In this document: positions 1 through 13,163 of the stretch, in pieces | Layout of the letters: each line of letters opens with the position of its first letter | Numbering within the stretch: the stretch's first letter is position 1 | Source: Prevotellaceae bacterium | Lineage (GTDB): Bacteria; Bacteroidota; Bacteroidia; Bacteroidales; UBA932 | Direction: 5' to 3' | DNA: 13,633 nt | NCBI GenBank assembly: GCA_031289995.1 | Contig: JAITOI010000163.1 | Location: 1 to 13,633, forward strand | Program-made: the position numbers and the translations under genes | Notes under the pieces: model-generated | What the model saw: only the letters and a program-made list of their open reading frames with translations | What the model was told of the DNA's origin: nothing | Database searches by the model: none

Positions 1-761
1 ATCAGCACGCCGTTGGCGCCCTTGCTGCCGTACATGGCGGTGGAGGCCGCGTCTTTGAGCACGGTGATGTCCTGAATGTCGCTGGGCGAAATGTTGAGCA
101 GCTGCGAGTAGCTCTCCTCATCGGCGGTGGCAAAGTCAAAGTCCGACGAAATCGTGGTCTCGTAGGGGATACCGTTCACCACGATGAGCGGGTCGGCGCT
201 GTTGTTGATGGACGAGGTGCCGCGGATGCGAATGGACATACCCGACCCAGGCTGCCCCGAGTTGGCCACAATGTCCACGCCAGCCAAGCGTCCCTGCAAG
301 GCTTGGTCGATGGAGGTTACGGGCAGACCTTCAATCTCCTTGGTATCCAACTTGCTATAGGCAAAAGTCATGTCGCGTTCGTCGATGTTGAGCGAGCCGA
401 TGTTCACCTTTTTCTTGGCCGAAATCACCACCTCATCCATCTCAACCGACTGCTCTTCAAGCCCCACATTCACCACCGCGCTGCTCTCGATGGGCAGCGT
501 AACGGGCTTAAATCCCATATAGGAAAACACCAGCGTGTTGCCCTTCACGTTGCTCACCGTAATGCTGTAGCTGCCGTGAATGTCCGTCATCGCGCCGCTC
601 AGAATGCGGTTGTTCTTGTCTTTTTCGGTAACGCTGGCGCCCACCAAGGGGGCGTTCGAGCCTTTTTCCGTCACCTTTCCGCGCAACAAAATTTTATCCT
701 GCGCGTGGGCGCTGCCCGCCGACACTACAACAATCGCAAGTATCCACAAAAGTCGCTTCAT
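1..761 (-). CDS. SusC/RagA-type TonB-dependent outer-membrane receptor, N-terminal part (cut by window edge)
   Basis: The N-terminal 253 codons of a SusC-family receptor are visible; the beta-barrel lies beyond the left edge. In this family the receptor sits in the outer membrane and imports glycans or peptides using TonB energy, normally with a SusD lipoprotein lid. Reading from the ATG at 759-761: a signal peptide (residues 1-21, ending AHA before Q), a carboxypeptidase-regulatory-like (CarboxypepD_reg) domain at about 25-105, a linker, then the TonB plug domain from about 135 with LQGRLAGVDIV, IRIRGTSSIN and DPLIVVNGIPYE. The family signature VLKDAASTAMYGSKGANGVL is at the edge. The gene begins 59 bases after the stop of the FAS1 lipoprotein gene on the same strand with no promoter motif recognised between them, so co-transcription is likely. 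The substrate cannot be read from this part. The family call is certain. Confidence 0.96.
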   Translation of the reverse strand, partial: MKRLLWILAIVVVSAGSAHAQDKILLRGKVTEKGSNAPLVGASVTEKDKNNRILSGAMTDIHGSYSITVSNVKGNTLVFSYMGFKPVTLPIESSAVVNVGLEEQSVEMDEVVISAKKKVNIGSLNIDERDMTFAYSKLDTKEIEGLPVTSIDQALQGRLAGVDIVANSGQPGSGMSIRIRGTSSINNSADPLIVVNGIPYETTISSDFDFATADEESYSQLLNISPSDIQDITVLKDAASTAMYGSKGANGVL

Positions 762-820
762 AGTTTTATACTTTTTTGCCGTAAACTTCTATAACTTCTA
801 CATTTCTACACTTCTTCAAG
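762..820. repeat. Short spacer with degenerate GTAGAA-type repeats
   Basis: This is the 59-base spacer between the FAS1 lipoprotein gene and susC. Read on the minus strand it holds three degenerate copies of a TGTAGAA-like unit (TGTAGAA, TGTAGAA, TATAGAA) separated by 1-2 bases. No TAnnTTTG promoter motif or terminator hairpin was seen, which fits a single operon. Confidence 0.4.
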
Positions 821-3343
821 CTATGGTTTTCTATAATACAGGTAGTTATCCACCTCGTGAATGACCGTTTGTGGGCCAAATAGGTTGCTGCGCTTCACGC
901 CCCGCGTAACGGATGCCGTTCGGGTTCCCATCTCAGGCATTTCGTAGGTGCTAAATTGCAAGTTGTTACCGTCACCAAAATCTTTCGAGATGCGCACAAA
1001 GGTGCTGTTTAGGCCGTCTTTGAGCGAGGTTACCGCCACCGCGTCGCGCTGCACCGTGCCGTTGTTGAACAGCACGTGGTCGTAGCCGTCGTTGAGGTAG
1101 AGCGTGCCCGGAGTGGTATGGTATCTGAAAAAATTCACAAAGTCGGTAACACATTTCGACCAGTTCAGCACCACGTCGGCCAACTCGCCGCTCTCTTCCT
1201 GCCTTTTTAGCGCCGCTAAATTCAAGTAAATTTTACGGGTTGAGAATTGAGGAACGTCATTTATTTCTCCGGTTTGTACTCGCTCGTCCATGTTGAGTAA
1301 TTCTGTCATCCGGTCGTTGTTGGGCAGCAAGAGCGTCCAAAACGACTCCGCGCTCATGGTCATTTTGGCGTTGTAGGTGGTGCTACCCACGGTGCGAGAA
1401 GTGAGCAGGTATATCAGCAGGTCGGCCGCGATGCTGATGTTCGGGTTATCAGTTTTCGCCTTTTCGAGGCAGTCAGCTAAGGTCGGTACAAGTTCGATGC
1501 TGCCGTCTCCGGTGCCCTCTATGTGCGAAAATTGCGGCAGCTTGTCCATCGTGAACACCTGCCCGTTGGAGAAAGTTTTCACCTTGGTTACCCTCACCTT
1601 TTCGCCCGCCATATAGTCGCCGGTCAGCTCCACCTCATTGTCCTTGTAGCGCAGCATATCGCCGTAGTCGTTCACCGCGTAGGCGTAGCCCTCGTAGCCG
1701 CCTGCGGGGTCGCCCGCAAAGTCGAGGATGCGCGTGTCGACGTCGGCATTTTTTATGCGCTTAAACACGTACGAGCGCACCAGCCTTTGCATCCGCGTGC
1801 CCGCGGTGAAGGCGGTGTTGGTGTGCCGAAATTCGTAGGCGTTGCTGCCGGCAGGCCATATCCAGCTGAAGCCTTCGCCCTGCAGCTGCTCGTCCGAGGG
1901 CAGCAGCACGGTGTAGTTCTCCTGCGTGTAGCCGTTGAGCGGGCACTTCACAAAATCCTCCATCAAGGTGGTGGAAAAATGCTTGTTCAGCGCGTTGTAC
2001 AAAAAGATGTACTTGAGCGTGGAGTTGTCGTCCGTGCGGCGCATCAAAATTTCGGTGAGCACCGACTCAAAGTAGTGGGATTTTACGTAGTCGCTCGAGC
2101 CGTAGAACAGGCCGTTGCTCGCAGGCCGGAGGTCGGGAAACCTAAGCGGGCTAAACTCCGCGCCAGCTCTACCCTCGCCGTTGATGAAGTTTTCGTACAC
2201 GTTGCGGGCGCCCTTGTACTCGCTCGGCCAAATCAGATTCAACCCCATCTGCGCGTTCACAAAATAGCTCAGCACGTTCGTCGGCAAAGCCGCCACCGAC
2301 GCGTAGCCGTAGGGCTGCACCACCTCCTCTTCAAACTTCGCTATCGCCGCGTTGTTGGGCGCGTACAGCGTGTAGCCGTCCTCCTCTTGCCCCGACAAAA
2401 AGTAGCGCTCCACGTTGAGCGGAATGGCCACCGCCTGCGACGAGGTGCGCAAAAATTCAAACGGCACGTTGTAGGCCTTGATGTACACGTTGTCGATGTT
2501 GCGCAACGGGTACATGTTTTTGTAGTACTCGTTCACCGCCGTGTTCGTTGCGTAGGCGTAGAAGAACGGCTCACCGGTGCCGTTTTTCACGTCGAGCAGC
2601 GCCTTGTAGGTCGAATAATTTTCGCCACCCAGCAAGTCCTCCAGCGTGGGCAATGGCTCGTTTACGCCGTCCACCTCGTGGGCAATGCCGTTGCTTGCCG
2701 AGATGTCCTGCGCGAGCACCGACGCGGCCTGCACGTTCCTTCCGGTGTAGCTCGATGCGGGGTAAAAAGTCTCATAGTCCGCGGGTGTTTTCGAGCTGAA
2801 GTTGCGCGTCAGGTAAAACGGCAGATATTTGTAGTTGTTGTCGTTGCTGTTCCAGCTGCTGTTGTAGGTGGTGGGAGAAGTTACCCAAATGGAGTCGCCA
2901 TTGTAGGCCTCGCGGCGCAAGGTTTCGTAGTAGGGCGTTTTCTTTTTGATGCACTTCAGCGTGTCCCACTTATTACTCGCCAGCACGTCCGACAAACGCC
3001 CGAATGCGTAGCGGTTGTACACCATCGAGTAGGCCACAATTTTTTCTACCACGTCCTGCGGAATGGCGTCCACCGACAGGTAGCCCTTCCTGCTCAGGTA
3101 GGCGTTTACGGCCGCGTCGTTGGGCGCAAACACCGTCCACAGGCCGTTACCTTGCAGCGAGCTGACGTAAAGCGTGCGGTCCACGCATTGCAGGTACAGG
3201 CCAAAGCGCCCCTCGCCTTGCAGCGCCTCGTAGAGGGATTTGCCGCCCCACTCCGGCTCTTCGTAGTACTTGTCGCGGTCGCGCTGGCATTGAACCAGCA
3301 GCAGGCACAGCAAGGGCAGCGCGTATGCTACATACTTTTTCAT
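821..3343 (-). CDS. Multi-domain fasciclin (FAS1)-like lipoprotein, upstream partner of SusC
   Basis: An 840-residue predicted surface or periplasmic lipoprotein. The N-terminus MKKYVAYALPLLCLLLVQC is a lipoprotein signal with the lipidated Cys at 19. I see about four FAS1-like units: ~36-230 (LYEALQ...GLWTVFAPNDAAVNAY, closing near GIAHEVDGV), ~232-420 (YTLYAPNNAAIAKF), ~425-610 (YTVLLPSDEQL, closing NGQVFTMDKLP) and ~617-840 (FWTLLLPNNDRM, closing VIHEVDNYLYY). The repeated 'T-hydrophobic-APN/PSD/PNN' segment is the FAS1 H1-like motif. FAS1 domains usually mediate adhesion or ligand binding, and in Bacteroidota such lipoproteins occur beside SusC/SusD pairs. The last three units are divergent, so boundaries are approximate. 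It is probably co-transcribed with susC and preceded by a long leader containing an intrinsic terminator. The start fits the signal peptide. The ligand is unknown. Confidence 0.85.
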   Translation of the reverse strand: MKKYVAYALPLLCLLLVQCQRDRDKYYEEPEWGGKSLYEALQGEGRFGLYLQCVDRTLYVSSLQGNGLWTVFAPNDAAVNAYLSRKGYLSVDAIPQDVVEKIVAYSMVYNRYAFGRLSDVLASNKWDTLKCIKKKTPYYETLRREAYNGDSIWVTSPTTYNSSWNSNDNNYKYLPFYLTRNFSSKTPADYETFYPASSYTGRNVQAASVLAQDISASNGIAHEVDGVNEPLPTLEDLLGGENYSTYKALLDVKNGTGEPFFYAYATNTAVNEYYKNMYPLRNIDNVYIKAYNVPFEFLRTSSQAVAIPLNVERYFLSGQEEDGYTLYAPNNAAIAKFEEEVVQPYGYASVAALPTNVLSYFVNAQMGLNLIWPSEYKGARNVYENFINGEGRAGAEFSPLRFPDLRPASNGLFYGSSDYVKSHYFESVLTEILMRRTDDNSTLKYIFLYNALNKHFSTTLMEDFVKCPLNGYTQENYTVLLPSDEQLQGEGFSWIWPAGSNAYEFRHTNTAFTAGTRMQRLVRSYVFKRIKNADVDTRILDFAGDPAGGYEGYAYAVNDYGDMLRYKDNEVELTGDYMAGEKVRVTKVKTFSNGQVFTMDKLPQFSHIEGTGDGSIELVPTLADCLEKAKTDNPNISIAADLLIYLLTSRTVGSTTYNAKMTMSAESFWTLLLPNNDRMTELLNMDERVQTGEINDVPQFSTRKIYLNLAALKRQEESGELADVVLNWSKCVTDFVNFFRYHTTPGTLYLNDGYDHVLFNNGTVQRDAVAVTSLKDGLNSTFVRISKDFGDGNNLQFSTYEMPEMGTRTASVTRGVKRSNLFGPQTVIHEVDNYLYYRKP

Positions 3344-3382
3344 TGGATGTGCTGTTTTTTTATTGGCAAATTATTGGTGCAC

Positions 3383-3431
3383 AAAAAAACCGCACTCGCG
3401 CAGCGGCGCAAATGCGCTGCTGCACGAGTGC
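3383..3431 (-). terminator. Intrinsic terminator in the 5' leader of the FAS1-susC operon (candidate attenuator)
   Basis: On the minus strand an 18-base-pair stem (arms 3414-3431 and 3392-3409; one G-U pair and one C-A mismatch) with a 4-base loop is followed after GG by seven T (3389-3383). The T run is on the minus-strand side only, so it acts in the direction of the FAS1 gene. It lies 40 bases before the FAS1 ATG, about 390 bases past the GH105 stop and about 260 bases after the presumed promoter. It could simply terminate read-through from GH105, but its place downstream of the only promoter motif seen favours attenuation. Confidence 0.8.
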
Positions 3432-3493
3432 AGTTAAAATACGTAAAATGGTATTTTTGTAATTCGCTGAAAGCGAGAAAGTTATATGGTTTT

Positions 3494-3601
3494 CTACCCC
3501 CCCCCGTTAACAAACGTTAACATAACACCAAAACGTTTGGCCGTATAGCAACCAAAAGCCGACGCAATTAAGCGGGTGTTGAGGTGTAAACATTTCATCA
3601 T
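3494..3601 (-). CDS. Possible 35-codon leader peptide ending at a G9 run
   Basis: A small ORF in the long leader of the FAS1 operon. It starts at tandem ATG codons (3601 and 3598) in an AT-rich context and ends with three Gly codons made by nine G (3505-3497), then TAG (3496-3494). I do not recognise the peptide; it has no signal peptide or known domain. It is listed because of its frame. With eight or eleven G the same ORF would continue 51 more sense codons through the terminator hairpin and stop at a TGA that overlaps the FAS1 ATG as ATGA. It could be a chance ORF; codon evidence is too short to decide. Confidence 0.25.
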   Translation of the reverse strand: MMKCLHLNTRLIASAFGCYTAKRFGVMLTFVNGGG

Positions 3602-3687
3602 TTTCTAAATCTAAATTTGAGCCGTAAAAAATCGTTTTTTTAAATCATTTTTCCTCTTGCGCAACATGTGTCCGCACACAGAAAGTG

Positions 3688-3695
3688 CAAAGGTA
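3688..3695 (-). promoter_or_regulatory. Candidate -7 element TACCTTTG for the FAS1-susC operon
   Basis: TACCTTTG on the minus strand matches the Bacteroidota primary sigma -7 consensus TAnnTTTG. The -33 side is weak: the nearest TTTG (3724-3721) is 25 bases upstream, longer than the usual 19-21. If used, the transcript would start near 3680 and carry a leader of about 340 bases. That leader includes a 5-base-pair stem at 3667-3680, palindromes at 3506-3537, the G9 run, a small hairpin at 3464-3476 and the terminator. It is the only TAnnTTTG I found on this strand in the spacer. Confidence 0.45.
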
Positions 3696-3822
3696 AGGGG
3701 TTTTTTGTTACGTTGTTCTCCAAAGAAACTTTTTTAGTGTTATTTATTAGTTTTTAGCGGTAATAAGGACATGTTACTTTCGTCTTTCTTTGAAGTAAAT
3801 AGCTGTATATTATCCTATTACC

Positions 3823-5055
3823 TTATCTTCTATCGCTCAACTTCATAATCTCGATGCCGCAGTCCAGAATCAGCCCAATTCCATGCTTTTCGTTATCGCC
3901 CACAGGACGGCTGTAGTAGAAGGGCAAATCGTCGGTAATGCCCGTGCCCACGCAGACATCGGTGAAGCGGCCATCGTCGGTGATTTTGGTTTTGAGCGCC
4001 CGCCAGCCGTTGGTGGCAATGCCGCGGTACGAGGCGGAGAGCCAGCCGCTGTTGATGGCCTTGGCCACGCCGTAGGTGAACAGCGCCGTCACGGACGACT
4101 CTTGGTAGCTGTCGTTTTTGTCGATGAGCTGGTGCCAAAAGCCTTGCCCATCTTGGTATCGCGAGTAGCCCACAACTTGGCGCACGAGCTGTTTTTTGAG
4201 CTCCTCTTTTTGCGGATGCGCGTCGGGCATGACGCTCAGCAGCTCGCATGTGGCCAGCACAATCCAGCCGTTGGCGCGCCCCCAGTAGGCTACGCCGTTG
4301 CGCTGCCAGCTGCTGTAGTAGCAGTGGTAGTGCAGCTGCTTCTGCTCGTCCCACAGGTACTTCGAAATGTTGATGAGCTGCTTTGCGGCGTCGTCAAAAT
4401 ATTTTTGCTCCTGCGTGATGTAGGCCAGCCGCGATAGGAACACCACGCCCATGTAGGCGTCATCGGCCCACACGGTGAGGTTCTGCGGAAACGTGCGGCT
4501 CAGCGTGCCGTCGGGAAGCCGCTCCTGTCCTGAGGTTATGCGCAGGCTGCCGTCGTCGAAATACTTTTTGTAGGCGGCGTTGCTGCGGCCATCGAGGTCG
4601 TACACGTCAATCACGGCGGCGCCCATTGCGCCAAAGTCGTCGAGCTCTTTCATGGTCCACAGCTGGCCGAAGGGCCATGTGTGGTGCCTGCGGTCGTTGC
4701 GAAACGTGGACTTGAAGTAGGCGTAGTTGTCGAAGCCAAAGGCCACGTGCTTCCTCGCGTAGTCCACGTACAGCGAATCGTTGAGGTGCTGTCCGAGGTG
4801 AATCATCGCGCGGTCGAGCACACCGTTGGAGTAGTGCCACTCGCCCAGCGGCGACTTAAATTTCACGTCCTCGCCTGCCGGAATGTCGGCAGTTTTGGCG
4901 TAGGTTTGGCCGTCTTTGACGCCCACAAATTCAAACGTCGGCTGCCGCAAAACGTTGTCGGCAATGCTGCGCAAAAGCTGCTCGTCGCTCTTCTGCGCGA
5001 ACCCCGCAATCGCAGCAAACATGCCGACTGCAAGGGGGAGAATGGTTTTTTTCAT
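3823..5055 (-). CDS. Secreted glycoside hydrolase family 105 protein (unsaturated rhamnogalacturonyl/uronyl hydrolase)
   Basis: A 410-residue enzyme of the GH105 (YteR/YesR-like) family. Members remove the 4,5-unsaturated uronic acid left at the non-reducing end of oligosaccharides by lyases, typically in rhamnogalacturonan (pectin) breakdown. The chosen ATG at 5053-5055 gives a signal peptide (residues 1-20, ...AIAGFA before Q); an in-frame start 18 codons upstream would add a polar stretch encoded by repeat DNA and is less likely. Family motifs seen: LGEWHYSNGV (70-79), HTWPFGQLW (125-133), VWADDAYMG (195-203, with the Asp pair matching the catalytic Asp region), YWGRANGW (257-264) and SYQESSVTALF (316-326). 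Length is close to family norm. It lies 87 bases downstream of argS on the same strand, and the spacer is mostly tandem repeat. Its location fits a role with the neighbouring SusC system, but the exact substrate is not shown. Confidence 0.92.
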   Translation of the reverse strand: MKKTILPLAVGMFAAIAGFAQKSDEQLLRSIADNVLRQPTFEFVGVKDGQTYAKTADIPAGEDVKFKSPLGEWHYSNGVLDRAMIHLGQHLNDSLYVDYARKHVAFGFDNYAYFKSTFRNDRRHHTWPFGQLWTMKELDDFGAMGAAVIDVYDLDGRSNAAYKKYFDDGSLRITSGQERLPDGTLSRTFPQNLTVWADDAYMGVVFLSRLAYITQEQKYFDDAAKQLINISKYLWDEQKQLHYHCYYSSWQRNGVAYWGRANGWIVLATCELLSVMPDAHPQKEELKKQLVRQVVGYSRYQDGQGFWHQLIDKNDSYQESSVTALFTYGVAKAINSGWLSASYRGIATNGWRALKTKITDDGRFTDVCVGTGITDDLPFYYSRPVGDNEKHGIGLILDCGIEIMKLSDRR

Positions 5056-5070
5056 GATGTTTTTTTTTTG

Positions 5071-5103
5071 TGATGTGCGATGTGCGATATGCGATATGCG
5101 ACT
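5071..5103. repeat. Heptamer tandem repeat CGATRTG
   Basis: A period-7 tandem repeat of about four and a half units (TGATGTG, CGATGTG, CGATATG, CGATATG, CGACT) lies 16 bases upstream of the GH105 start codon. Its reverse complement shares TCGCACATC with the repeats at 11397-11445. Confidence 0.75.
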
Positions 5104-5109
5104 CTGCAA

Positions 5110-5144
5110 TCTTCAAATTTTCAAATCTTCAAATCTTCAAATCT
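5110..5144. repeat. Octamer tandem repeat TCTTCAAA
   Basis: Four head-to-tail copies of an 8-base unit (TCTTCAAA; the second reads TTTTCAAA) at 5110-5141, followed by a partial unit that runs into the argS stop codon (5143-5145). Related copies occur at 8287-8317 and 11616-11631. Confidence 0.8.
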
Positions 5145-5145
5145 A
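5138..5145 (-). promoter_or_regulatory. Possible -7 element TAGATTTG for the GH105 gene, overlapping the argS stop codon
   Basis: On the minus strand TAGATTTG matches TAnnTTTG; its TAG is the argS stop codon and its TTTG is the first octamer repeat unit. A TTG is present 17 bases upstream (5165-5163), shorter than usual. Transcription from here would give GH105 its own leader of about 75 bases. It may be coincidence, since the octamer itself supplies TTTG. Confidence 0.25.
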
Positions 5146-6921
5146 CATCCTCTCCGGAACCTCAATCCCCAGCAGCCCCATAGCCGTTTTCAGAGCGCGT
5201 CCAACCTGCTTAGCGAGGACGAGCTTGAGGGTGCGCAGGGCGATATTTTCCTCGTGCAGAATGGTAACGTCGTGGTAGTATTGGTTGAACTCTTTGGCCA
5301 GCTCGTAGGCGAAATTTGCCACGAGCGCGGGCGAGTGCTCAGCGCCTGCCTGCAACACCACCTGCGGAAATGTGGACATCGTTTTGACCAGCTCCAGCTC
5401 GCGTGCACCAATCAAGTCCGCGTCAATGCCAGCAAGGGATGGCGCGTCGCTCGCCTTGCGCATCACGGAGCAAATTCGGGCGTGGGTGTACTGTATAAAG
5501 GGGCCGGTGTTGCCGTTGAAATCTATGCTCTCCTTGGGGTTGAAGAGCATCGTTTTTTGCGGGTCAACTTTCAGGATGAAGTACTTCAGCGCCGCGAGGC
5601 CAACCATTCGGAACAGGCGCTGCTGCTCATCTGCGGGCATATCGTCGAGCTTGCCGAGCTCCTGCGAAGTCTCGCGAGCGGTGGCAATCATTGCGTCCAT
5701 CAAGTCGTCGGCATCGACCACCGGACCCTCGCGCGATTTCATCTTTCCTGCGGGCAGCTCCACCATTCCGTACGAGAGGTGGAATATGCTGTCGGCCCAA
5801 TCGTAGCCAAGCTTTTTAAGGACGAGGCGGAGCACCTGAAAGTGGTAGTTTTGCTCGTTGCCCACCACGTAAATCAGCTCGCCGAACTTGTACTCATCGT
5901 AGCGCTGGCGGGCGGTGCCGAGGTCTTGCGTCATGTACACCGAGGTGCCGTCGGAGCGCAACAGCAGCTTCTGGTCGAGGCCGTCGGCGGTGAGGTCGCA
6001 CCACACCGAGCCGTCGTCATTCCTAACAAACACGCCCTTCTGCAGGCCATCGTTCACGAGCTCTTTGCCGAGCAAGTAGGTCTGCGATTCGTAGTAAATT
6101 TTGTCGAACGACACACCCAGCTGCCGGTAGGTTTCATCGAAGCCCGCATACACCCACGAGTTCATCGTTTCCCACAAGCTGCGAACGTCGGCGTCGCCTT
6201 GCTCCCAGCTCAGCAACATGCGCTGCGCCTCCTGCAAAATAGGCGCCTGCTTCTTCGCCTCATCCTCGCTCAAGCCTTGCGCCACAAGGCTTGCCACCTC
6301 CTGCTTGTAGGCCTTATCGAACTGCACGTAGTAGTCGCCCACAAGGTGGTCGCCCTTTTTGTGCGCAGCCTCCGGCGTGGCACCTTGCCCGTAGCGCTGC
6401 CACGCCAGCATTGACTTGCAGATGTGAATGCCGCGGTCGTTCACCAGGTTGACTTTGACCACGCGATGCCCGTTTGCCTCGAGGATGTTTGCCACCGCAA
6501 AGCCGAGCAGGTTGTTGCGAATGTGGCCAAGGTGCAGCGGCTTGTTGGTGTTGGGTGAGGAGTACTCCACCATCACCGTTTTGCCCGACGAATTTTTTTC
6601 GGCACAGCCAAAGTTTTCGCTCGCGGCCATTTGCTCCAGCTGCTCCAGCCAAAACGATTTTGCCAGCACGATGTTGAGGAAGCCCTTGACCACGTTGTAG
6701 GCCGCCACCTGCGGCACGTTAGCCTTGAGCCATTCGCCGATTTCAGCGCCCAGCAGCTCGGGCGTTTTGCGGCTCAGCTTGGCTATCGGAAAGGTAACCA
6801 GCGTGAGGTCGCTCTCGTACTCCCGGCGCGTTTTGGTGAGCTGCACGGCACAGTTTTCTAAGCCGTAAAGCGCCGCAATGCACCCCTTAATTTTTTCGGT
6901 TATAAATAGTTCTGCGCTCAT
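5143..6921 (-). CDS. argS: Arginine-tRNA ligase (arginyl-tRNA synthetase)
   Basis: A cytoplasmic class Ia synthetase of 592 residues that charges tRNA-Arg with arginine using ATP. The N-terminal Add-1 domain (about 1-105) recognises the tRNA elbow. The catalytic core starts with VEYSSPNTNKPLHLGHIRNN, holding the HIGH motif as HLGH (130-133), and continues with VNLVNDRGIHICKSM (157-171), the conserved VVGNEQNYHFQVL (352-364) and the KMSKS-type loop as GKMKSREG (392-399). The C-terminal DALR anticodon-binding domain includes NTGPFIQYTHARI (471-483) and the end GIEVPERM. The start at 6919-6921 (MSAEL) fits the family; an in-frame start 16 codons upstream would place the promoter inside the gene. 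It has its own promoter on the minus strand, overlapping that of the divergent TPR gene. Confidence 0.98.
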   Translation of the reverse strand: MSAELFITEKIKGCIAALYGLENCAVQLTKTRREYESDLTLVTFPIAKLSRKTPELLGAEIGEWLKANVPQVAAYNVVKGFLNIVLAKSFWLEQLEQMAASENFGCAEKNSSGKTVMVEYSSPNTNKPLHLGHIRNNLLGFAVANILEANGHRVVKVNLVNDRGIHICKSMLAWQRYGQGATPEAAHKKGDHLVGDYYVQFDKAYKQEVASLVAQGLSEDEAKKQAPILQEAQRMLLSWEQGDADVRSLWETMNSWVYAGFDETYRQLGVSFDKIYYESQTYLLGKELVNDGLQKGVFVRNDDGSVWCDLTADGLDQKLLLRSDGTSVYMTQDLGTARQRYDEYKFGELIYVVGNEQNYHFQVLRLVLKKLGYDWADSIFHLSYGMVELPAGKMKSREGPVVDADDLMDAMIATARETSQELGKLDDMPADEQQRLFRMVGLAALKYFILKVDPQKTMLFNPKESIDFNGNTGPFIQYTHARICSVMRKASDAPSLAGIDADLIGARELELVKTMSTFPQVVLQAGAEHSPALVANFAYELAKEFNQYYHDVTILHEENIALRTLKLVLAKQVGRALKTAMGLLGIEVPERM

Positions 6922-6966
6922 TTTTGGTTTGCCCAAGCGGTTGCTTGGGAGGTAAAAAATTTTCGC

Positions 6967-6996
6967 CAAAGGTAGTAAAAAACTTGTACTACCAAA
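6967..6996 (-). promoter_or_regulatory. argS promoter (TTTG-N18-TACCTTTG)
   Basis: Minus-strand TTTG (6996-6993) and TACCTTTG (6974-6967) are separated by 18 bases and match the Bacteroidota -33/-7 pattern. The start point would fall near 6960, giving a short leader to the ATG at 6921. This supports MSAEL as the true argS start. Confidence 0.6.
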
Positions 6997-7013
6997 TTTT
7001 ATAGCTATCTTTG
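6984..7013 (+). promoter_or_regulatory. Promoter of the TPR-ribH operon (TTG-N19-TATCTTTG)
   Basis: Plus-strand TTG (6984-6986), a 19-base spacer and TATCTTTG (7006-7013) fit the Bacteroidota promoter consensus. It is interleaved with the divergent argS promoter, sharing 6984-6996. Confidence 0.65.
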
Positions 7014-7056
7014 CAGCCCAAAAATTTACTGAAACTCAAAAAAAACGGGTAGAAAA

Positions 7057-7752
7057 ATGTCGAAAAAAATTGAACACACCGAAGGTAATTTAGGCGCCAT
7101 CGAGCACTCATTATCGTCAGCTGAGCTATTCATCGAAAAGTACGAGCGCCAGCTCATCTACGGCGGCGTTGGTATTCTCTTGCTTGTGGGCGTATTTTTT
7201 GCCTACAAAAATTGGTACCAGGCGCCGCGCGAAGAGGCCGCGCAGTCGCAGCTGTTTACCGCAGTGCAGTACTTCGAGCAAGACTCGCTGAACCTTGCCC
7301 TCAACGGCGACGGCAGCAACCTTGGCCTGATTGACGTGGAAGACCAGTACGGCAGCACCACCGCAGGCAACCTCGCCGCCTACTACGCAGGGCTGGCTTA
7401 CCTGCACACCGGCCAGTACGACGAGGCCATCCGCTACTTCAACAAGTACAGCGCCAGCAACAGCCTCGCCAAGGCGCTCGTGAACGGCAACCTCGGCGAC
7501 GCCTACAGCGAGCTGGGCAGCTACGACAAGGCCGTGGCGCACTACAAAAAATCGGCCGACAGCGACGACAACAAGCTCACCGCGCCGCGATGCCTTCTCA
7601 AGGCCGGAATCTTGCTCGAAAAGCAGGGCAAATTTGGCAAGGCAAAAGAGCAGTACGAGCGCCTCAAGCGCGACTACTCCGACACCGCCGAGGGCCGCGA
7701 AGCCGACAAGTACATTGCGCGTGCGCAGGTGGGCATAGAGCAAAATTCGTAG
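7057..7752 (+). CDS. Membrane-anchored tetratricopeptide repeat protein
   Basis: A 231-residue protein with a short polar N-terminus, one transmembrane segment at about 33-50 (LIYGGVGILLLVGVFFAY) and a C-terminal domain of TPR repeats facing the periplasm if the N-terminus stays inside. Clear repeats: ~102-132 (AAYYAGLAYLHTGQYDEAIRYF), ~138-166 (LGDAYSELGSYDKAVAHYKK) and ~174-205 (LLKAGILLEKQGKFGKAKEQY). The architecture resembles the YfgM-like family of single-pass TPR proteins, which act as scaffolds or chaperone partners; a precise role is not known for this one. Its stop is 30 bases before ribH, and this TPR-ribH pairing is, from memory, common in Bacteroidales, so the two are probably one operon under the promoter at 6984-7013. 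Confidence 0.9.
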   Translation: MSKKIEHTEGNLGAIEHSLSSAELFIEKYERQLIYGGVGILLLVGVFFAYKNWYQAPREEAAQSQLFTAVQYFEQDSLNLALNGDGSNLGLIDVEDQYGSTTAGNLAAYYAGLAYLHTGQYDEAIRYFNKYSASNSLAKALVNGNLGDAYSELGSYDKAVAHYKKSADSDDNKLTAPRCLLKAGILLEKQGKFGKAKEQYERLKRDYSDTAEGREADKYIARAQVGIEQNS

Positions 7753-7782
7753 CACTTTTTTTGCAAAAAAATCACCCCAACT

Positions 7783-8274
7783 ATGGCAACTGTGCTGCAC
7801 AATCTATCGCACATACACCGCGACGGCGAGCCAATAACGGCCAAGGAAATGCACTTCGGCATTGTGGTGTCGAAGTGGAATTCCGAGATTACCGACAAGC
7901 TGCTGAGCGGTGCCCTGAGCACGCTCAACGAGCATGGCGCTCTCGAAAAAAATATCGTGGTCAAGTGGGTGCCCGGCAGCTTCGAGCTACCGCTGGGAGC
8001 GCAGCTGCTGGCCAACAACCACAAGGTGGACGCGGTGATTTGTTTGGGCTGCGTGATACAGGGCGAAACACGCCACTTCGAGTTTATTTGCAGCGCCGTT
8101 TCGTCGGGCATTATGCAGCTCAACCTGGAGTACAGCATGCCCTTCATCTTCGGCCTGCTCACGCCAAACGACATGCAGCAAGCCCTCGACCGCGCAGGCG
8201 GCAAGCACGGCAACAAGGGCGATGAGGCCGCCATCACAGCCATCAAAATGGTGGAGATGCAACGCATGATTTAG
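7783..8274 (+). CDS. ribH: 6,7-dimethyl-8-ribityllumazine synthase
   Basis: A 163-residue lumazine synthase, the penultimate enzyme of riboflavin synthesis. It condenses 5-amino-6-ribitylamino-uracil with 3,4-dihydroxy-2-butanone 4-phosphate to give 6,7-dimethyl-8-ribityllumazine. The proteins of this family assemble into pentamers or 60-mer shells in the cytoplasm. Family landmarks: IVVSKWNSEIT (27-37) with Trp32 at the ring-stacking position, WVPGSFELP (62-70), CLGCVIQGETRHFEFI (87-102) with His98 at the proton-transfer position, PFIFGLLT (120-127), and DRAGGKHGNKGDEAA (136-150) with Arg137 at the phosphate-binding position. All expected active-site residues are there and the length is typical. 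No other riboflavin genes are nearby. It probably shares the TPR gene's promoter. Confidence 0.97.
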   Translation: MATVLHNLSHIHRDGEPITAKEMHFGIVVSKWNSEITDKLLSGALSTLNEHGALEKNIVVKWVPGSFELPLGAQLLANNHKVDAVICLGCVIQGETRHFEFICSAVSSGIMQLNLEYSMPFIFGLLTPNDMQQALDRAGGKHGNKGDEAAITAIKMVEMQRMI

Positions 8275-8286
8275 GAAATTTTCCAA

Positions 8287-8317
8287 TCTTCAAATCTTCA
8301 AATTTTCAAATTTTGAA
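8287..8317. repeat. Octamer tandem repeat TCTTCAAA between ribH and yebC
   Basis: About four 8-base units (TCTTCAAA twice, TTTTCAAA, then the diverged TTTTGAAT) start 12 bases after the ribH stop and fill most of the 51-base spacer before the YebC-family gene. The unit and orientation (on the plus strand) match the array at 5110-5144. No TAnnTTTG promoter was seen in this spacer. Confidence 0.75.
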
Positions 8318-8325
8318 TCTAAAAA

Positions 8326-9067
<742 letters not shown>

Positions 9068-9088
9068 CGTAATAAATAAATTTTGAAC

Positions 9089-9991
9089 ATGAAAAAGTTA
9101 CTGTACATCGGCGTTGCGGCAGCATTGATGCTACCGGCGCGGGCTATGGCTCAGGACAGCTTAGCCACCGACAGCACGGCCACGTCAGCTTCGGCTGCGT
9201 CGGCCACCACCTCTGACCCTGCGACAGCGCCTGCACCCGCGGCATCGCCTGCACGCGCAGCGCGCACTCCTGCGCCGCTCACCAAGGCCGAAATTAAGGC
9301 CATGGAAAAGGCCGAAAAAGAGCGCAAGAAGGCGGAGGAGGCAGCCCGCAAGCAGGCCGAAAAAGATGCCAAGCAGCGCGCCAAAGAGCAGAAAAAAAAG
9401 CCGCTGTACGTGCGCGATATGGAGGCCGACATTGTGGTGCTGAAGGCATCGCAGGACTCGCTGAGGCACTTGCTACGAGCCGCACAGCGCGAGGCTAACG
9501 GCGCACGCGAGCTGGCGCGCACCTCGCAGGAAGCCGCACAAAAAGCCGCCGAGCAAGCCGCGCAGGCCGCACAACTGGCGCAAGCCGCACAGCAGCAAGC
9601 GGCGCAGCAACAAGCGGCGATGGCCACCTACACGCCACCCACCGCATCCTCGTCGTCCGGCGCCACCAAAGGCACCAGCAAGGGCAAGGCAAGTGAGCTC
9701 AGCTACAAGGTGCAGCTGCTGGCGCAGGATAAAAAAATCGAAAACGTGAAGGCCGCATTCGAGCTGTTCGACATCCGCGACTCCATTTCGGAGGACGTGG
9801 TGGTAGGCGCTAACGAACATTTTACCTACAAATATCTCGTTGGCCCCTACCCCACCATCGAGAAGGCGCGGCAGGAATGCTTCCGCGTTCGCAACAACGG
9901 CAAGCGCTTTAAGGATGCCTTTGTGGTGCCCTACTTCCAAGGCAAGCGAATTACGATGGGCGAGGCGCGGGAGATTCTGGGAATGAAGTAA
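9089..9991 (+). CDS. Secreted Ala-rich coiled-coil protein with a SPOR-like C-terminal domain
   Basis: A 300-residue exported protein. The ATG at 9089-9091 gives a signal peptide (1-21, ...ARAMA before Q); a TTG two codons earlier is also in frame but adds nothing. After the signal comes an Ala/Thr/Ser/Pro-rich linker (22-63), a strongly charged Lys/Glu/Ala helix (65-105), a second Ala/Gln-rich coiled coil (110-180) and a Ser/Gly/Thr linker. The C-terminal ~95 residues (SYKVQLLAQDKKIE..., YKYLVGPYPTIEKARQECF, DAFVVPYFQGKRIT) have the layout of SPOR-type domains, which bind denuded peptidoglycan at division sites. The call of SPOR-like is by pattern only. A role at the cell wall is therefore inferred. 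A strong terminator follows the gene. No clear promoter is seen in the 46-base upstream spacer, so it may be read through from yebC. Confidence 0.8.
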   Translation: MKKLLYIGVAAALMLPARAMAQDSLATDSTATSASAASATTSDPATAPAPAASPARAARTPAPLTKAEIKAMEKAEKERKKAEEAARKQAEKDAKQRAKEQKKKPLYVRDMEADIVVLKASQDSLRHLLRAAQREANGARELARTSQEAAQKAAEQAAQAAQLAQAAQQQAAQQQAAMATYTPPTASSSSGATKGTSKGKASELSYKVQLLAQDKKIENVKAAFELFDIRDSISEDVVVGANEHFTYKYLVGPYPTIEKARQECFRVRNNGKRFKDAFVVPYFQGKRITMGEAREILGMK

Positions 9992-10015
9992 AAAAAATTG
10001 AAGTTGGAGAACGCG

Positions 10016-10059
10016 GAAACGCAGCAGGTGTAAGGCTTGCTGCGTTTCTGTTTTTTTTT
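10016..10059 (+). terminator. Intrinsic terminator after the SPOR-like protein gene
   Basis: Perfect 11-base inverted repeat GAAACGCAGCA / TGCTGCGTTTC (10016-10026 and 10038-10048) with an 11-base loop, followed by a T-rich run TG then nine T (10049-10059). It separates the upstream genes from the sigma factor unit. Confidence 0.9.
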
Positions 10060-10068
10060 CAGCTGCGC

Positions 10069-10099
10069 TGTAACTTTTTCCAAAAACGGGCGACCAATA
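10069..10099 (+). promoter_or_regulatory. Candidate ECF-type promoter of the sigma factor gene (TGTAAC-N16-CGACCAATA)
   Basis: TGTAAC (10069-10074), a 16-base spacer and CGACCAATA (10091-10099) have the AAC-core -35 and CG-led -10 layout used by many ECF sigma factors, and no proper TAnnTTTG is present. This suggests that the sigma factor transcribes its own gene. The distance to the first ATG (10111) is only about 12 bases, so either the leader is very short or the second ATG (10123) is the start. Confidence 0.4.
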
Positions 10100-10110
10100 G
10101 GGCAAAACGA

Positions 10111-10614
10111 ATGAACAGCAAAATGGACAAGAACGTGCGAGAGCAAGAGTTTATGGCGGCTGTGGAGCAGCACCAGCGGCTCATCTACAAGGTGTGCTAC
10201 GTGTATGCCACCAGCAAGGACAACCTGAACGACCTCTACCAAGAGGTGATGGTGAACCTGTGGAAAGCGTTTCCGCGCTTTCGCGGCGAGTGCAAGCTAT
10301 CCACGTGGATGTACCGCATTGGGCTGAACACCTGCGTTTCGTTTCTCCGCAAGAGCCGCCGAATGCCGGAGGTGGTGCCCCTCTCGGTGGACATCGAAGC
10401 CCTTGCCGACAGCGACGCGAGCGACGCCGCACAGCTGCGTGAGCTCTACCAAATGATTAGCCGCCTGAGCCAGCTTGAGCGCGCTCTCATCCTCCTCTGG
10501 CTGGAGGAAAAGAGCTACCAAGAGATGGCGGAAATCGTTGGCATTTCGCGCGACAACGTGGCCGTTAGGCTGAACCGCATTCGCGAAAAGTTGAAGAAAA
10601 TGTCGAACAACTAA
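10111..10614 (+). CDS. ECF-type RNA polymerase sigma factor
   Basis: A 167-residue sigma-70 family protein with only regions 2 and 4, the ECF pattern. Region 2 at about 22-85: QRLIYKVCYVYATSKDNLNDLYQEVMVNLW carries the core-binding and -10-reading helices, and STWMYRIGLNTCVSFLRK closes it. Region 4 at about 108-163: LSQLERALILLWLEEKSYQEMAEIVGISRDNVAVRLNRIREKLKK, with the helix-turn-helix that reads the -35 box. There is no extra C-terminal domain. A second in-frame ATG is at 10123. The gene stands alone after a terminator and is followed 12 bases later by a membrane protein gene, the usual place for a partner that controls the sigma factor. Target genes cannot be told from this window. Confidence 0.93.
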   Translation: MNSKMDKNVREQEFMAAVEQHQRLIYKVCYVYATSKDNLNDLYQEVMVNLWKAFPRFRGECKLSTWMYRIGLNTCVSFLRKSRRMPEVVPLSVDIEALADSDASDAAQLRELYQMISRLSQLERALILLWLEEKSYQEMAEIVGISRDNVAVRLNRIREKLKKMSNN

Positions 10615-10626
10615 ATCCAAAAAAAA

Positions 10627-11208
10627 ATGGAATTGGAAGAACTCAAAGCGGGCTGGAGCCTGCTAAGCGAGCGCCTTGAGCGCAGCGAGGTGGTGAACCG
10701 CCGCATCGTCCGCGAAATGGTCGCCAAGCGTACGCAAACGGCGTACGGAAAAATTCAAAGCTGGAATGTGCTGGGGCTGGCGATATGCCTTGGCATGATG
10801 ATCGTGCTGTACGTTCTGGCGGTCATCGGGCCCTACAAGCTACCGCTGTCGCTGCTGGTGGCAGGCGAGGTGATGCTGGGCTTAACCTGCGTGTGGCAGG
10901 CCGTAAAGCTGAGCTTCATTGGCCGCTTTCGGATGGACAAAAATTCGGTGCTGGAGCTCAGCAAGTGGACGCTGCGCTACCGACGGCTCATCAAGCGCGA
11001 GGAGGTCGTGGGCGTGCTGCTCGTGGTGACGTTTTTAGCCGTGTACTACCTCTTGTATTTCCAGCATTCGGTGAAGCTCAGCATCCTCTTCGTTATGGCC
11101 ACCATCGTTGCCGTCGCGCTCAGCTACCTTTGCTACCGCTACGTGGAGCGCAAAAACGTGGATGCTATCGGGCAGGGGTTGGAGGAGCTGGGGTCGATGG
11201 AGGGGTGA
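10627..11208 (+). CDS. Four-helix membrane protein, candidate partner (anti-sigma) of the ECF sigma factor
   Basis: A 193-residue protein that I cannot assign to a named family. The N-terminus (1-45, MELEELKAGWSLLSERLERS) is a polar amphipathic helix that would lie in the cytoplasm. Four hydrophobic segments follow at about 47-67, 73-93, 127-145 and 150-170, with a charged cytoplasmic loop at ~100-125 and a short polar tail. Twelve bases separate it from the sigma factor gene, so the two are co-transcribed. Position and topology suggest that it binds and holds the sigma factor at the membrane, but it has no zinc-type (HxxxCxxC) anti-sigma motif and no FecR-like domain, so this role is inferred from context only. 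Confidence 0.75.
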   Translation: MELEELKAGWSLLSERLERSEVVNRRIVREMVAKRTQTAYGKIQSWNVLGLAICLGMMIVLYVLAVIGPYKLPLSLLVAGEVMLGLTCVWQAVKLSFIGRFRMDKNSVLELSKWTLRYRRLIKREEVVGVLLVVTFLAVYYLLYFQHSVKLSILFVMATIVAVALSYLCYRYVERKNVDAIGQGLEELGSMEG

Positions 11209-11216
11209 AGGCTAAG

Positions 11217-11244
11217 GTAACAACGGCAAGGATGCCGTTGCTAC
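11217..11244. repeat. Hairpin just after the membrane protein gene
   Basis: Inverted repeat GTAACAACGGCA / TGCCGTTGCTAC (11 of 12 pairs) with a 4-base loop, starting 9 bases past the stop codon. There is no T run, so it is at most a weak or factor-assisted terminator; it could instead be the edge of the adjacent repeat element or protect the mRNA 3' end. Confidence 0.6.
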
Positions 11245-11245
11245 G

Positions 11246-11405
11246 GCGTTCTGCATGGCGCACGGGTGTTGGGTTGTGCCCCGAATGAGGGATGTACTCC
11301 GTGCGCAAGACGCGGATGTGGTTGCCGTCCGCAGGCTGCGCTACCGCTTGTCTGCGGTTATGAAAATTACGTCTCTTCGGGACTTCGCAGCAACATCGCA
11401 CATAG
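11246..11405 (+). repeat. Dispersed-repeat-like element, copy 1
   Basis: The first ~75 bases (11246-11320) match the reverse complement of 11512-11589 at high identity, sharing GCACGGGTGTTG, CCCCGAATGAGG and CGTGCGCAAGAC. Weaker similarity continues inward to CGGGACTT-GCAGCAA. Internal short stems include ACCGC-N6-GCGGT. Confidence 0.7.
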
Positions 11406-11411
11406 ACTCTG

Positions 11412-11441
11412 GCATAGTCGCACATCGCATAGTCGCACATC
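11412..11441. repeat. Tandem duplication of GCATAGTCGCACATC at the centre of the repeat island
   Basis: Two exact 15-base copies side by side (11412-11426 and 11427-11441), flanked by partial CGCACAT copies. The shared TCGCACATC is also found, on the other strand, in the heptamer array at 5071-5103. Confidence 0.8.
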
Positions 11442-11589
11442 ACATCCCCTTGCTGCAAGTCCCGCATGGGACGGCACTTTATTAACCGTAGGCTAAAGCC
11501 TACGGTCTCGACACCCATCCGCGGTCTTGCGCACGAAGCACAGGCCTCATTCGGGGTACAAGCAACACCCGTGCGCATGGCAGAACGCA
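11430..11589 (-). repeat. Dispersed-repeat-like element, copy 2 (inverted)
   Basis: Inverted partner of copy 1. It contains two well-formed stems: CCGTAGGCT-AA-AGCCTACGG (11486-11505) and GTCCC-GCAT-GGGAC (11459-11472). The outer 75 bases pair with copy 1, so a transcript crossing the region could fold into one long hairpin with a ~190-base loop. Confidence 0.7.
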
Positions 11590-11615
11590 TGGAATAGCAC
11601 CTCAATAAAGGTTTA

Positions 11616-11631
11616 GCTTCAAATCTTCAAA
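11616..11631. repeat. Two octamer units (GCTTCAAA, TCTTCAAA)
   Basis: Two adjacent units of the same octamer as at 5110-5144 and 8287-8317, in the same plus-strand orientation. They fall where the -33 region of the NlpC/P60 gene promoter would be. Confidence 0.6.
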
Positions 11632-11638
11632 TTTTTCC

Positions 11639-11646
11639 TACCTTTG
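11639..11646 (+). promoter_or_regulatory. -7 element TACCTTTG of the NlpC/P60 gene
   Basis: TACCTTTG matches the Bacteroidota -7 consensus, 29 bases before the GTG start. No good TTTG or TTG -33 element lies at 19-21 bases upstream; that position is occupied by the octamer repeat. Confidence 0.5.
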
Positions 11647-11675
11647 CCCTCGCATCAAAAACAAAAATCAGCACC

Positions 11676-12188
11676 GTGAAGCAAAAAATCCTCGCCATCC
11701 TAACCCCCATCATCCTACTCGCATCCTGCGCTCCGACGCGCTATTACTCGGCGGCGGATAGGGAGTTTTATGCAAAATATTCGCAGGCGCTGGGCGTGAA
11801 ATTCGAGGGTACGGAAAATCCGCGCCTCATCGAGGAGGTGGCACGATGGATGGGCACGCCCTACCGCTACGGCGGCAGCTCGCGCAAGGGCGTGGATTGC
11901 TCGGGGCTGGTGCACGAGGTGTACAAGAGCGCCCTCAACATGGCGCTGCCGCGCACCACTGCCGACCTCAAAAAACACGCCACGCGCATTCGGCAACGCA
12001 AGCTGCGGTGCGGCGACTTGGTGTTTTTTAGCATCCGCGAATCGTGGTTGCGCAAGACCGACCACATCGGCATTTACCTCGCCCACGGCAAGTTTGTGCA
12101 CGCCTCCACCTCGCGCGGGGTAATGGTTTCGGACCTGAATGAGGCCTACTGGCGCAAGAGCTTTTCGCGTGCCGGACGTGTCAGGTAG
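11676..12188 (+). CDS. NlpC/P60-family lipoprotein, probable peptidoglycan endopeptidase
   Basis: A 170-residue lipoprotein. The GTG at 11676-11678 is preferred because it gives a complete lipoprotein signal (MKQKILAILTPIILLASC, lipidated Cys18); no ATG serves. The mature part is one NlpC/P60 domain, a papain-like cysteine peptidase that cuts peptide stems of peptidoglycan, usually between D-Glu and the diamino acid. It shows IEEVARWMGTPYRYGG (52-67), the nucleophile in VDCSGLV (Cys75), LRCGDLVFF (110-118), the catalytic His in DHIGIYL (His130) and a third polar residue in FVHAS (His142). The Cys-His-His set is complete. Short Spr/NlpC-like lipoproteins of this size are common wall-remodelling enzymes. 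Own promoter motif at 11639-11646. Confidence 0.93.
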   Translation: MKQKILAILTPIILLASCAPTRYYSAADREFYAKYSQALGVKFEGTENPRLIEEVARWMGTPYRYGGSSRKGVDCSGLVHEVYKSALNMALPRTTADLKKHATRIRQRKLRCGDLVFFSIRESWLRKTDHIGIYLAHGKFVHASTSRGVMVSDLNEAYWRKSFSRAGRVR

Positions 12189-12235
12189 GCGGCCACCGCC
12201 GCTCCTCGCGCTCGATGACATGGGCGATTTTTGTC

Positions 12236-12267
12236 TTGCATTTTTCGCTAAAAAATTGCTACCTTTG
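12236..12267 (+). promoter_or_regulatory. Promoter of the acyltransferase gene (TTG-N21-TACCTTTG)
   Basis: TTG (12236-12238), a 21-base spacer and TACCTTTG (12260-12267) fit the Bacteroidota consensus. The start point would be about 12274, leaving a ~25-base leader before the ATG at 12299 and ruling out the longer in-frame ORF that begins at 12215. Confidence 0.65.
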
Positions 12268-12298
12268 CGCCGAAAATTTTAGCATATCAAGCTCAATC

Positions 12299-13045: not shown

Positions 13046-13073
13046 TTTATCAACAGTAGATTGTTGATAAATT
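13044..13073. repeat. Perfect inverted repeat with two DnaA-box-like halves upstream of dnaN
   Basis: AATTTATCAACA (13044-13055) and its exact reverse complement (13062-13073) surround a 6-base loop. Each half contains TTATCAACA, one base from the DnaA box TTATCCACA. It overlaps the acyltransferase stop and ends 2 bases before the likely dnaN -33 TTG. No T run follows, so terminator function would be weak. Confidence 0.6.
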
Positions 13074-13075
13074 TG

Positions 13076-13107
13076 TTGGCGTGTAACCGATTTTTTTCCT
13101 ACCTTTG
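13076..13107 (+). promoter_or_regulatory. dnaN promoter (TTG-N21-TACCTTTG)
   Basis: TTG (13076-13078), a 21-base spacer and TACCTTTG (13100-13107) match the Bacteroidota pattern. The leader to the ATG at 13164 would be about 50 bases and very AT-rich. Confidence 0.65.
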
Positions 13108-13163
13108 CCCGCTTAAAATTAAACAATTTTTCTTTTTTTCGTACACATAAAAAACACAACGCA

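Follow-up and report, generated by a model that had tools for sequence, protein, structure and literature searches.

A candidate phase-variable transcription attenuator before a FAS1-SusC operon and its repeat-bearing counterparts in uncultured Bacteroidales

Introduction

In the contingency loci of Neisseria, Haemophilus and Campylobacter, slipped-strand changes in simple repeats vary surface genes, with many such loci in a genome. Attenuation of Escherichia coli pyrBI works through a leader open reading frame (ORF) that spans a terminator, where a closely following ribosome prevents the hairpin from forming. At the pil1 locus of Streptococcus gallolyticus, GCAGA repeats within a leader ORF switch by frame-dependent antitermination (PMC3894217); the part of that report used here grounds the model in sequenced variants, chloramphenicol treatment and mutants, and presents pil3 as alike (Danne et al. 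2014, PMC3894217). For Bacteroides, the phase variation named in the consulted part of a 2025 review is largely DNA inversion (PMC11868660), and in Bacteroides fragilis the SusC/SusD families vary by means of a site-specific invertase (as cited in the same part of PMC11868660). Here we analyze a 13,633-nucleotide (nt) stretch of DNA from a Prevotellaceae bacterium (assembly GCA_031289995.1, contig JAITOI010000163.1, positions 1 to 13,633 of the forward strand; hereafter the window), in which a short leader ORF runs into nine consecutive G residues (G9) and is followed by an intrinsic terminator and an operon that opens with a FAS1 gene and a SusC-type gene.

We think it quite probable that the window leader is a phase-variable transcription attenuator. 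An earlier note on this DNA, made from its sequence, had proposed that the length of the G run switches terminator formation; this part of the note is strongly supported by analogy with related leaders, and its interpretation as a whole is supported in part. It is also probable, by a slightly smaller measure, that a lineage of uncultured Bacteroidales carries a genome-wide network of independent attenuator switches, at dozens of operons per genome (about one third of those scanned being SusC-led). Each switch would have a hypermutable repeat to itself, of G, CA or GA units that differ from one ortholog to another, and together they would amount to a frame lottery.

Results

Layout of the window leader

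The leader lies on the minus strand. Its ORF (3494..3601) begins with an ATG at 3601 and runs for 35 codons (MMKCLHLNTRLIASAFGCYTAKRFGVMLTFVNGGG, then stop), 32 of which precede the G9 run at 3497..3505 that we propose as the length-variable switch. Run lengths of 6, 9 and 12 G close the ORF with a TAG immediately past the run (3496-3494, the presumptive OFF frame), 59 nt 5' of a hairpin. This hairpin (3435-3388; -40.3 kcal/mol, z -7.5), together with a T7 tail at 3389-3383, makes up an intrinsic terminator spanning 3383..3435. With 8 or 11 G, the frame remains open for another 51 or 52 codons (read-through extension, 3340..3496), as far as a TGA (3342-3340) that overlaps the FAS1 ATG (3343-3341) in the sequence ATGA. 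With 7 or 10 G, a second extension (3360..3496) likewise continues past the hairpin and stops at 3362-3360, so that two of the three frames following the G run are read-through frames. Both the 35-codon ORF ending in G9 and TAG and the passage through the hairpin to the FAS1 start with 8 or 11 G had been described in the earlier note, and our frame check bears them out; the read-through with 7 or 10 G had been missed. A G9 run is expected 0.04 times per window; there is no other such run in this one, and 7 of 200 shuffled windows contain one. Two GTTAAC palindromes, at 3521-3516 and 3511-3506 and 10 nt apart, adjoin the run upstream.

In the mechanism that this layout suggests, transcription would begin near 3681 and a ribosome would translate the leader ORF into the G run, where a slipped-strand change in run length would set the frame downstream. 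At 9 G, the ribosome would halt at the TAG 59 nt upstream of the hairpin, the hairpin would fold, most transcripts would end and FAS1-susC would be OFF. At 8 or 11 G, or at 7 or 10 G, the ribosome would pass through the hairpin region, the hairpin would be blocked and the operon would be ON; at 8 or 11 G, the overlap between the leader stop and the FAS1 start would make coupling possible. What the sequences show is the layout, the frame statistics and, among assembled leaders, both frame states; that the leader promoter is used, that the leader is translated, that antitermination takes place and that the length changes in living cells are steps that we infer.

Reading frames in related leaders

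A (CA)n or (GA)n version of the same design appears to front many operons, often those of SusC-type receptors, in related uncultured Bacteroidales. We assembled three sets of arrays and counted as a terminator any hairpin that had a T-rich tail and a folding energy of -10 kcal/mol or below. CA set 1 starts from 64 array ends, for which 59 regions were used, giving 59 distinct arrays (5 too short downstream, 15 without a hairpin); CA set 2 holds 30 loci drawn from 88 ends, with 29 arrays absent from set 1 (3 short, 7 without a hairpin); and the GA set holds 13 plus 21 loci and the locus L008, giving 25 arrays (3 short, 5 without a hairpin). Only CA set 2 is fresh for the frame rule described below, because part of the GA leaders had already been inspected visually.

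A terminator stands downstream of 39 of 54 CA arrays, beginning 30-127 nt after the array, whereas five dinucleotide shuffles gave 6-14 of 54 and the opposite strand gave 6 of 54. On the upstream side, examined for 21 CA arrays, a hairpin was found once in one direction and twice in the other. Among all 113 arrays, 36 have less than 30 nt of upstream sequence in the stretch examined, mostly owing to contig edges, and repeat lengths in metagenome assemblies are doubtful.

The sequence between repeat and terminator follows a rule: of 75 testable leaders, 74 keep a frame free of stops from the repeat to beyond the hairpin, where shuffles predict about 40. At least one such frame exists in 39 of 39 leaders of CA set 1 (mononucleotide shuffles, 19.8, standard deviation (sd) 3.0; dinucleotide shuffles, 21.4, sd 2.9), in 18 of 19 of CA set 2 (9.5, sd 2.2) and in 17 of 17 GA leaders (9.2, sd 1.7). 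Intergenic terminators free of repeats have an open frame in 29 of 51 cases (Fisher 1.3e-9 versus the leaders), and when one leader is taken per cluster of similar linkers the rule holds in 30.8 of 31 as opposed to 17.1 (sd 2.5) in shuffles. Every one of the 75 leaders also has some frame that stops at least 24 nt before the hairpin. With the 28-nt stop-to-hairpin limit adopted from PMC3894217, 67 of 75 combine a read-through frame with a frame stopping at least 28 nt before the hairpin, a figure given without a chance expectation. The window follows the same rule, with one frame stopping 59 nt before the hairpin and two passing it. The earlier note had pointed to related leaders as the place to check whether the frame is kept; between repeat and hairpin it is kept open in these 74 of 75, and the switch is not refuted. 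When the longest leader ORF is followed through the repeat as assembled, 23 of 34 leaders are in the OFF state and 11 of 34 in the ON state.

Leader ORFs upstream of the repeat and a shared box

Upstream of the arrays, an ATG-led ORF of at least 20 codons reaches the repeat in 39 of 42 CA leaders, as compared with 10.6 (sd 2.9, maximum 21) in 200 shuffles, and in 17 of 22 GA leaders, as compared with 4.0 (sd 1.8). Natural intergenic positions, taken as background, show such an ORF in 110 of 453 cases, and reading toward the repeat from its other flank yields one in 5 of 35 and 4 of 19 cases. A stop closes the frame within 210 nt upstream for 30 of these 39 CA leader ORFs and for 16 of these 17 GA leader ORFs, which are therefore short; the remaining 9 CA and 1 GA leader ORFs could be the ends of longer genes. 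Related leader ORFs have 22-40 codons before the repeat, and the window leader has 32.

Twelve GA leaders place their ATG exactly at -68, with no stop in any of them, and in ten of these TAnnTTTG, the -7 promoter consensus of Bacteroidetes, occurs at -94 to -109. Within 150 nt upstream, this motif precedes 12 of 22 GA arrays (3.3 expected) and 10 of 42 CA arrays (4.0 expected). Alignment of the 12 GA leader ORFs gives a BLOSUM score that is reached by 18 of 2000 column permutations, or by 142 of 2000 once a shared FGxIFA segment is removed; evidence for selection at the peptide level is thus weak. The absence of stops is a somewhat stronger signal (16 and 37 of 2000 permutations are without a stop). 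By eye, RFGVML in the window leader resembles FGTIF and SGTIF of the GA and CA leaders, a likeness on which we do not rely.

A box, TCAGCGAGTTACG, lies soon after the repeat in 45 of 113 leaders at no more than 4 mismatches, and in 24 of these 45 it is followed by a stop codon (TAA in 14, TAG in 9, TGA in 1), which is perhaps a kept OFF stop. The window has TCAGCGAATTACA at 3458..3470 of the minus strand, a match with 2 mismatches and the window's only match at that limit, beginning 26 nt past the G run; in most relatives the box begins 2-12 nt past the repeat. Matches at no more than 2 mismatches are expected 0.35 times over both strands, and 56 of 200 shuffled windows have at least one, so that its place inside the leader is what counts. 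Since poly-G runs in relatives are mostly not leaders, the window's membership of the family rests on its layout, its orthologous position and the shared box.

Orthologous loci and genomic spread

A scan of a species-genome collection with a FAS1 alignment yielded 14 loci. Of these, 7 come from metagenome-assembled genomes (MAGs) that bear the name Prevotellaceae, Bacteroidales or Tannerella, and the other 7 from Dysgonomonas or Paludibacter. The MAGs may be termite-gut bins, to judge by the style of their isolate names, a habitat that term searches in two papers did not confirm. Four of the 7 uncultured Bacteroidales MAG loci carry a dinucleotide array plus a terminator before FAS1: (CA)n in L001 (82 nt; also numbered L168) and L002 (112 nt; also L240), and (GA)n in L007 (64 nt; also L104) and L008 (26 nt). 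The terminator-like hairpins that follow these repeats have energies of -26.3, -28.3, -20.7 and -13.0 kcal/mol, respectively. The 7 Dysgonomonas and Paludibacter loci contain no dinucleotide array of at least 5 units and no G or C run of at least 8, and four of them (L006, L009, L011, L012) show no terminator within 360 nt of FAS1; for L010, L013 and L014 the FAS1 start was not located, and the stretch used in this 360-nt scan missed the L001 repeat and the L008 leader.

Long CA arrays are abundant in the genomes of L001, L002 and L004 (G001-G003), which have 59, 46 and 47 ends, respectively; we counted ends of 16 or more units ending in C, or of 11 or more ending in A, and some of these ends merely mark a break inside a single array. 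We searched 247 relatives of G002 for CA arrays of 13 or more units ending in C; 21 of them have at least one, and 10 have at least four such ends. The GA form with the FGxIFA segment is present in the genome of L007 (G004) and three relatives, that is, in 4 of 296 genomes searched.

Gene order, promoter candidate and first genes

The minus strand of the window carries, in order, a GH88-family gene (5109-3823), a 479-nt gap, the FAS1 gene (3343-821) and the start of a SusC-type gene (761-3). The FAS1 (fasciclin-domain) gene, at 821..3343, is the first gene of the operon proposed to be controlled (PF02469, 1.1e-13), and the 5' part of the SusC-type TonB-dependent receptor gene, at 3..761, runs off the window (Plug, 2e-20; CarbopepD_reg_2, 3.5e-15). 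The window's arginyl-tRNA synthetase is 72% identical to its best named matches, which are MAGs labeled 'Prevotellaceae bacterium'. Scans of the window with Rfam (gathering threshold), a tRNA search, a plasmid collection and viral contigs gave no match.

In the gap, the minus-strand element TACCTTTG(CAC) at 3688..3695 fits, on sequence grounds only, the -7 promoter consensus TAnnTTTG as given in the consulted part of PMC7366714. It is the sole minus-strand TAnnTTTG between the GH88 stop (3823) and FAS1, and the leader transcript likely starts near 3681. A TTTG further upstream, at 3724-3721, is more distant from TACCTTTG than anticipated for a promoter. Over both strands of the whole window, TAnnTTTG occurs 14 times versus 5.9 expected, and none of 200 shuffles reaches 14.

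For the related leaders, we took as first gene the longest ORF with a start within 900 nt (a rough rule) and scanned with Pfam the first 330 amino acids of 80 out of 88 distinct first genes of at least 190 amino acids, with 8 near-copies or fragments left out. Among the 80, 28 have the Plug domain of SusC-type TonB-dependent receptors and 3 have FAS1; other first genes include 3 family-2 glycosyltransferases, 2 fimbrillin-like proteins and 1 with a rhamnogalacturonan lyase domain. The scan returned 49 families in all, those named here being among the 25 listed. At two loci (L158 in G002 and L173 in G001), a gene with a LacI-type regulator-like start lies behind a CA array (66 and 78 nt, respectively); neither locus has a hairpin that passes the threshold, and the regulator may itself be phase variable.

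Weighing the evidence

A number of findings weigh against the attenuator interpretation. Taken alone, the frame relations of the window are near chance and not significant: of 5000 shuffles of the linker, 2562 leave one or more frames open through the hairpin, and 316 leave two or more. Because shuffles give open frames this often, these relations alone are no evidence, and it is the related leaders, not the window locus, that exceed chance; the earlier note's doubt that the ORF could be chance was, on these numbers, a fair one. The G9 length is that of the assembled contig. Among relatives, L260 has no open frame through its hairpin, the sole exception in CA set 2. When natural terminators of any kind are considered (L001-L014, repeat-free), 208 of 275 have an open frame (Fisher 3e-7 versus the leaders), many of these terminators probably lying behind genes. 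The linkers are also related to one another, a looser cut-off merging 72 of 75 into one group. Seven of the 39 CA leader ORFs have a frame open for more than 210 nt upstream and 2 more reach the locus edge, and TAnnTTTG precedes 5 of 24 CA leaders with a terminator versus 2.7 expected, which is no clear enrichment. Leaders with all three frames open are expected from shuffles 0.31 + 0.01 + 0.11 times in the three sets (about 0.4) and none was found; their lack is no evidence, because shuffles predict it too, and we dropped as signals both the lack of leaders open in all three frames and the presence of a closed frame in every leader. At two of the 7 MAG loci (L003 and L005), we found no such repeat 5' of FAS1 in the DNA examined, and at L004 the array, (CA)46, is on the FAS1 strand but 3.7 kb upstream of that gene.

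Poly-G runs in relatives count on the same side. Seven related genomes have 9-71 runs of at least 8 G each, and of 68 such runs taken from G001-G005, G008 and G009, 56 have enough downstream sequence; a downstream hairpin follows 7 of these 56, as opposed to 5 of 49 in the opposite direction, and runs of at least 7 G followed by a stop give 9 of 60 versus 7 of 56, with no excess in either case (30 loci from the latter search are left out of our counts). Poly-G leaders are rare in relatives, where such runs are mostly not leaders, and we dropped poly-G as a leader class from the evidence. Only L345 (G001) has the window's layout, with TATATTTG, an ATG, 32 codons, G12, a TAA and a hairpin of -21.5 kcal/mol; by eye, a lipoprotein-like start follows the hairpin. 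In L430 and L431 (G012), GTTAAC, 8 or 9 G and TAA stand shortly 5' of TTTTATTTTTG, which looks like a promoter-spacing repeat and not a leader repeat. A G13 run near the contig end of L002 (8281-8293) is not in a leader and lies downstream of two long ORFs (1095 and 527 amino acids).

These observations lend themselves to an explanation by chance, in which neither the G9 run nor the leader ORF has a role, the hairpin simply terminates upstream transcription or attenuates constitutively, and the FAS1 promoter lies elsewhere. The near-chance frames of the window, the scarcity of poly-G leaders and the two MAG loci without a repeat all speak for it, yet we consider it unlikely in view of the repeats plus terminators found in orthologous FAS1 leaders, the low expectation for a G9 run, the shared box inside the leader and the identical 32-codon layout of L345. 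The GH88 gene, moreover, ends 388 nt before the hairpin, with the TAnnTTTG site between them. A second alternative, that repeat length alters promoter spacing or escape, draws on the GA leaders. The sigma-54 -24/-12 consensus is TGGCAYN5TTGC, and TTTGGCAYGATNTTTGCA, directly 5' of the GA repeat, resembles such a site; it stands just before the GA arrays of L104, L110, L112-L116, L267-L285 and L008, and partly before the CA array of L241. It sits inside the leader ORF, where it encodes FG[TM]IFA, at 21 sites in 4 of 296 genomes (L008 being one further site outside the 21; a reversed-pattern control gave 0), and the segment is conserved as DNA, with the free third positions fixed as TTT, GGC, TTT and GCA at 21 of 21 sites. 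The window itself has a one-mismatch -7 site, TAACTTTC, at 3484-3477 after the G run, and the poly-G runs of L430 and L431 lie shortly 5' of TTTTATTTTTG. We nevertheless judge control at initiation to be quite improbable and keep the sigma-54 reading only as a rival, because it leaves unexplained both the open frame through the hairpin in 74 of 75 leaders and the upstream ATG-led ORFs. The hairpin would still stand in the way, the common ATG and TAnnTTTG positions of the GA leaders point elsewhere, and the window leader has no sigma-54-like site at no more than 2 mismatches, although one is present before most GA arrays.

A third possibility is that the repeat RNA is the target of a trans-acting small RNA (sRNA) or protein, its length tuning binding and not frame. 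The poly-G of the Helicobacter pylori tlpB leader is such a target, for the sRNA RepG, and CA, GA or G on the coding strand might by inference serve as a binding site here. This explanation predicts no reading-frame rule, and the differing repeat units among FAS1 orthologs argue against one sequence-specific partner; we hold it to be very improbable.

Discussion

If the attenuator interpretation is correct, leader repeats that gate termination would be a second route to phase variation in these bacteria besides DNA inversion, a population would sample very many states of surface import, and on and off states would be predictable from sequence alone. Such leaders would also test transcription-translation coupling in Bacteroidota. 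They would easily be overlooked in annotated genomes, because gene callers are unlikely to pick up a repeat or a leader of 30 codons. Among the best-ranked matches in the open-access literature, judged by title and the start of the abstract (most subscription papers and all preprints fall outside), we found no report of repeat-leader attenuation in Bacteroidota, and a term search of the consulted part of the 2025 review (PMC11868660) returned neither 'leader peptide' nor 'attenuation'.

Several known systems share part of this design. As in B. fragilis, to the extent that the consulted part of the review describes it, the Bacteroidales leaders would vary SusC-type outer-membrane proteins between on and off; B. 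fragilis does so by DNA inversion, not by repeat slippage. In contingency loci, the repeat is usually inside the gene or its promoter, whereas the Bacteroidales repeat lies in a separate leader ORF and would act on termination. In pyrBI, UTP is sensed through RNA polymerase pausing and the frame is fixed; in the Bacteroidales leaders, the frame is the variable.

The principle of repeat-leader attenuation is already known from the work on pil1 and pil3 (PMC3894217). Like the window and its relatives, those loci, in the part of the report used here, combine a leader ORF with tandem repeats of a unit length not divisible by three and with a terminator, all ahead of an operon for a surface structure. 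Expression is low in the frame that ends well short of the terminator and high in the others, which end at it or pass it, and read-through depends on translation. The Bacteroidales leaders show the same elements: an ATG-led open frame into the repeat, a unit of 1 nt (G, in the window) or 2 nt (CA or GA), a terminator, and both stop and read-through frames. Their likeness to pil1 is one of layout and frame statistics, as read from sequence alone. They differ in scale and composition, since the pil systems comprise two loci with GCAGA units and the Bacteroidales leaders, with units of G, CA or GA, stand before many operons of a genome, often those of SusC-type receptors. What appears to be new is thus that a second phylum uses such leaders at many loci in each genome, that the repeat units are different and that the genes behind them are largely outer-membrane importers, which, if true, would extend a principle described at two Streptococcus loci to one used across whole genomes.

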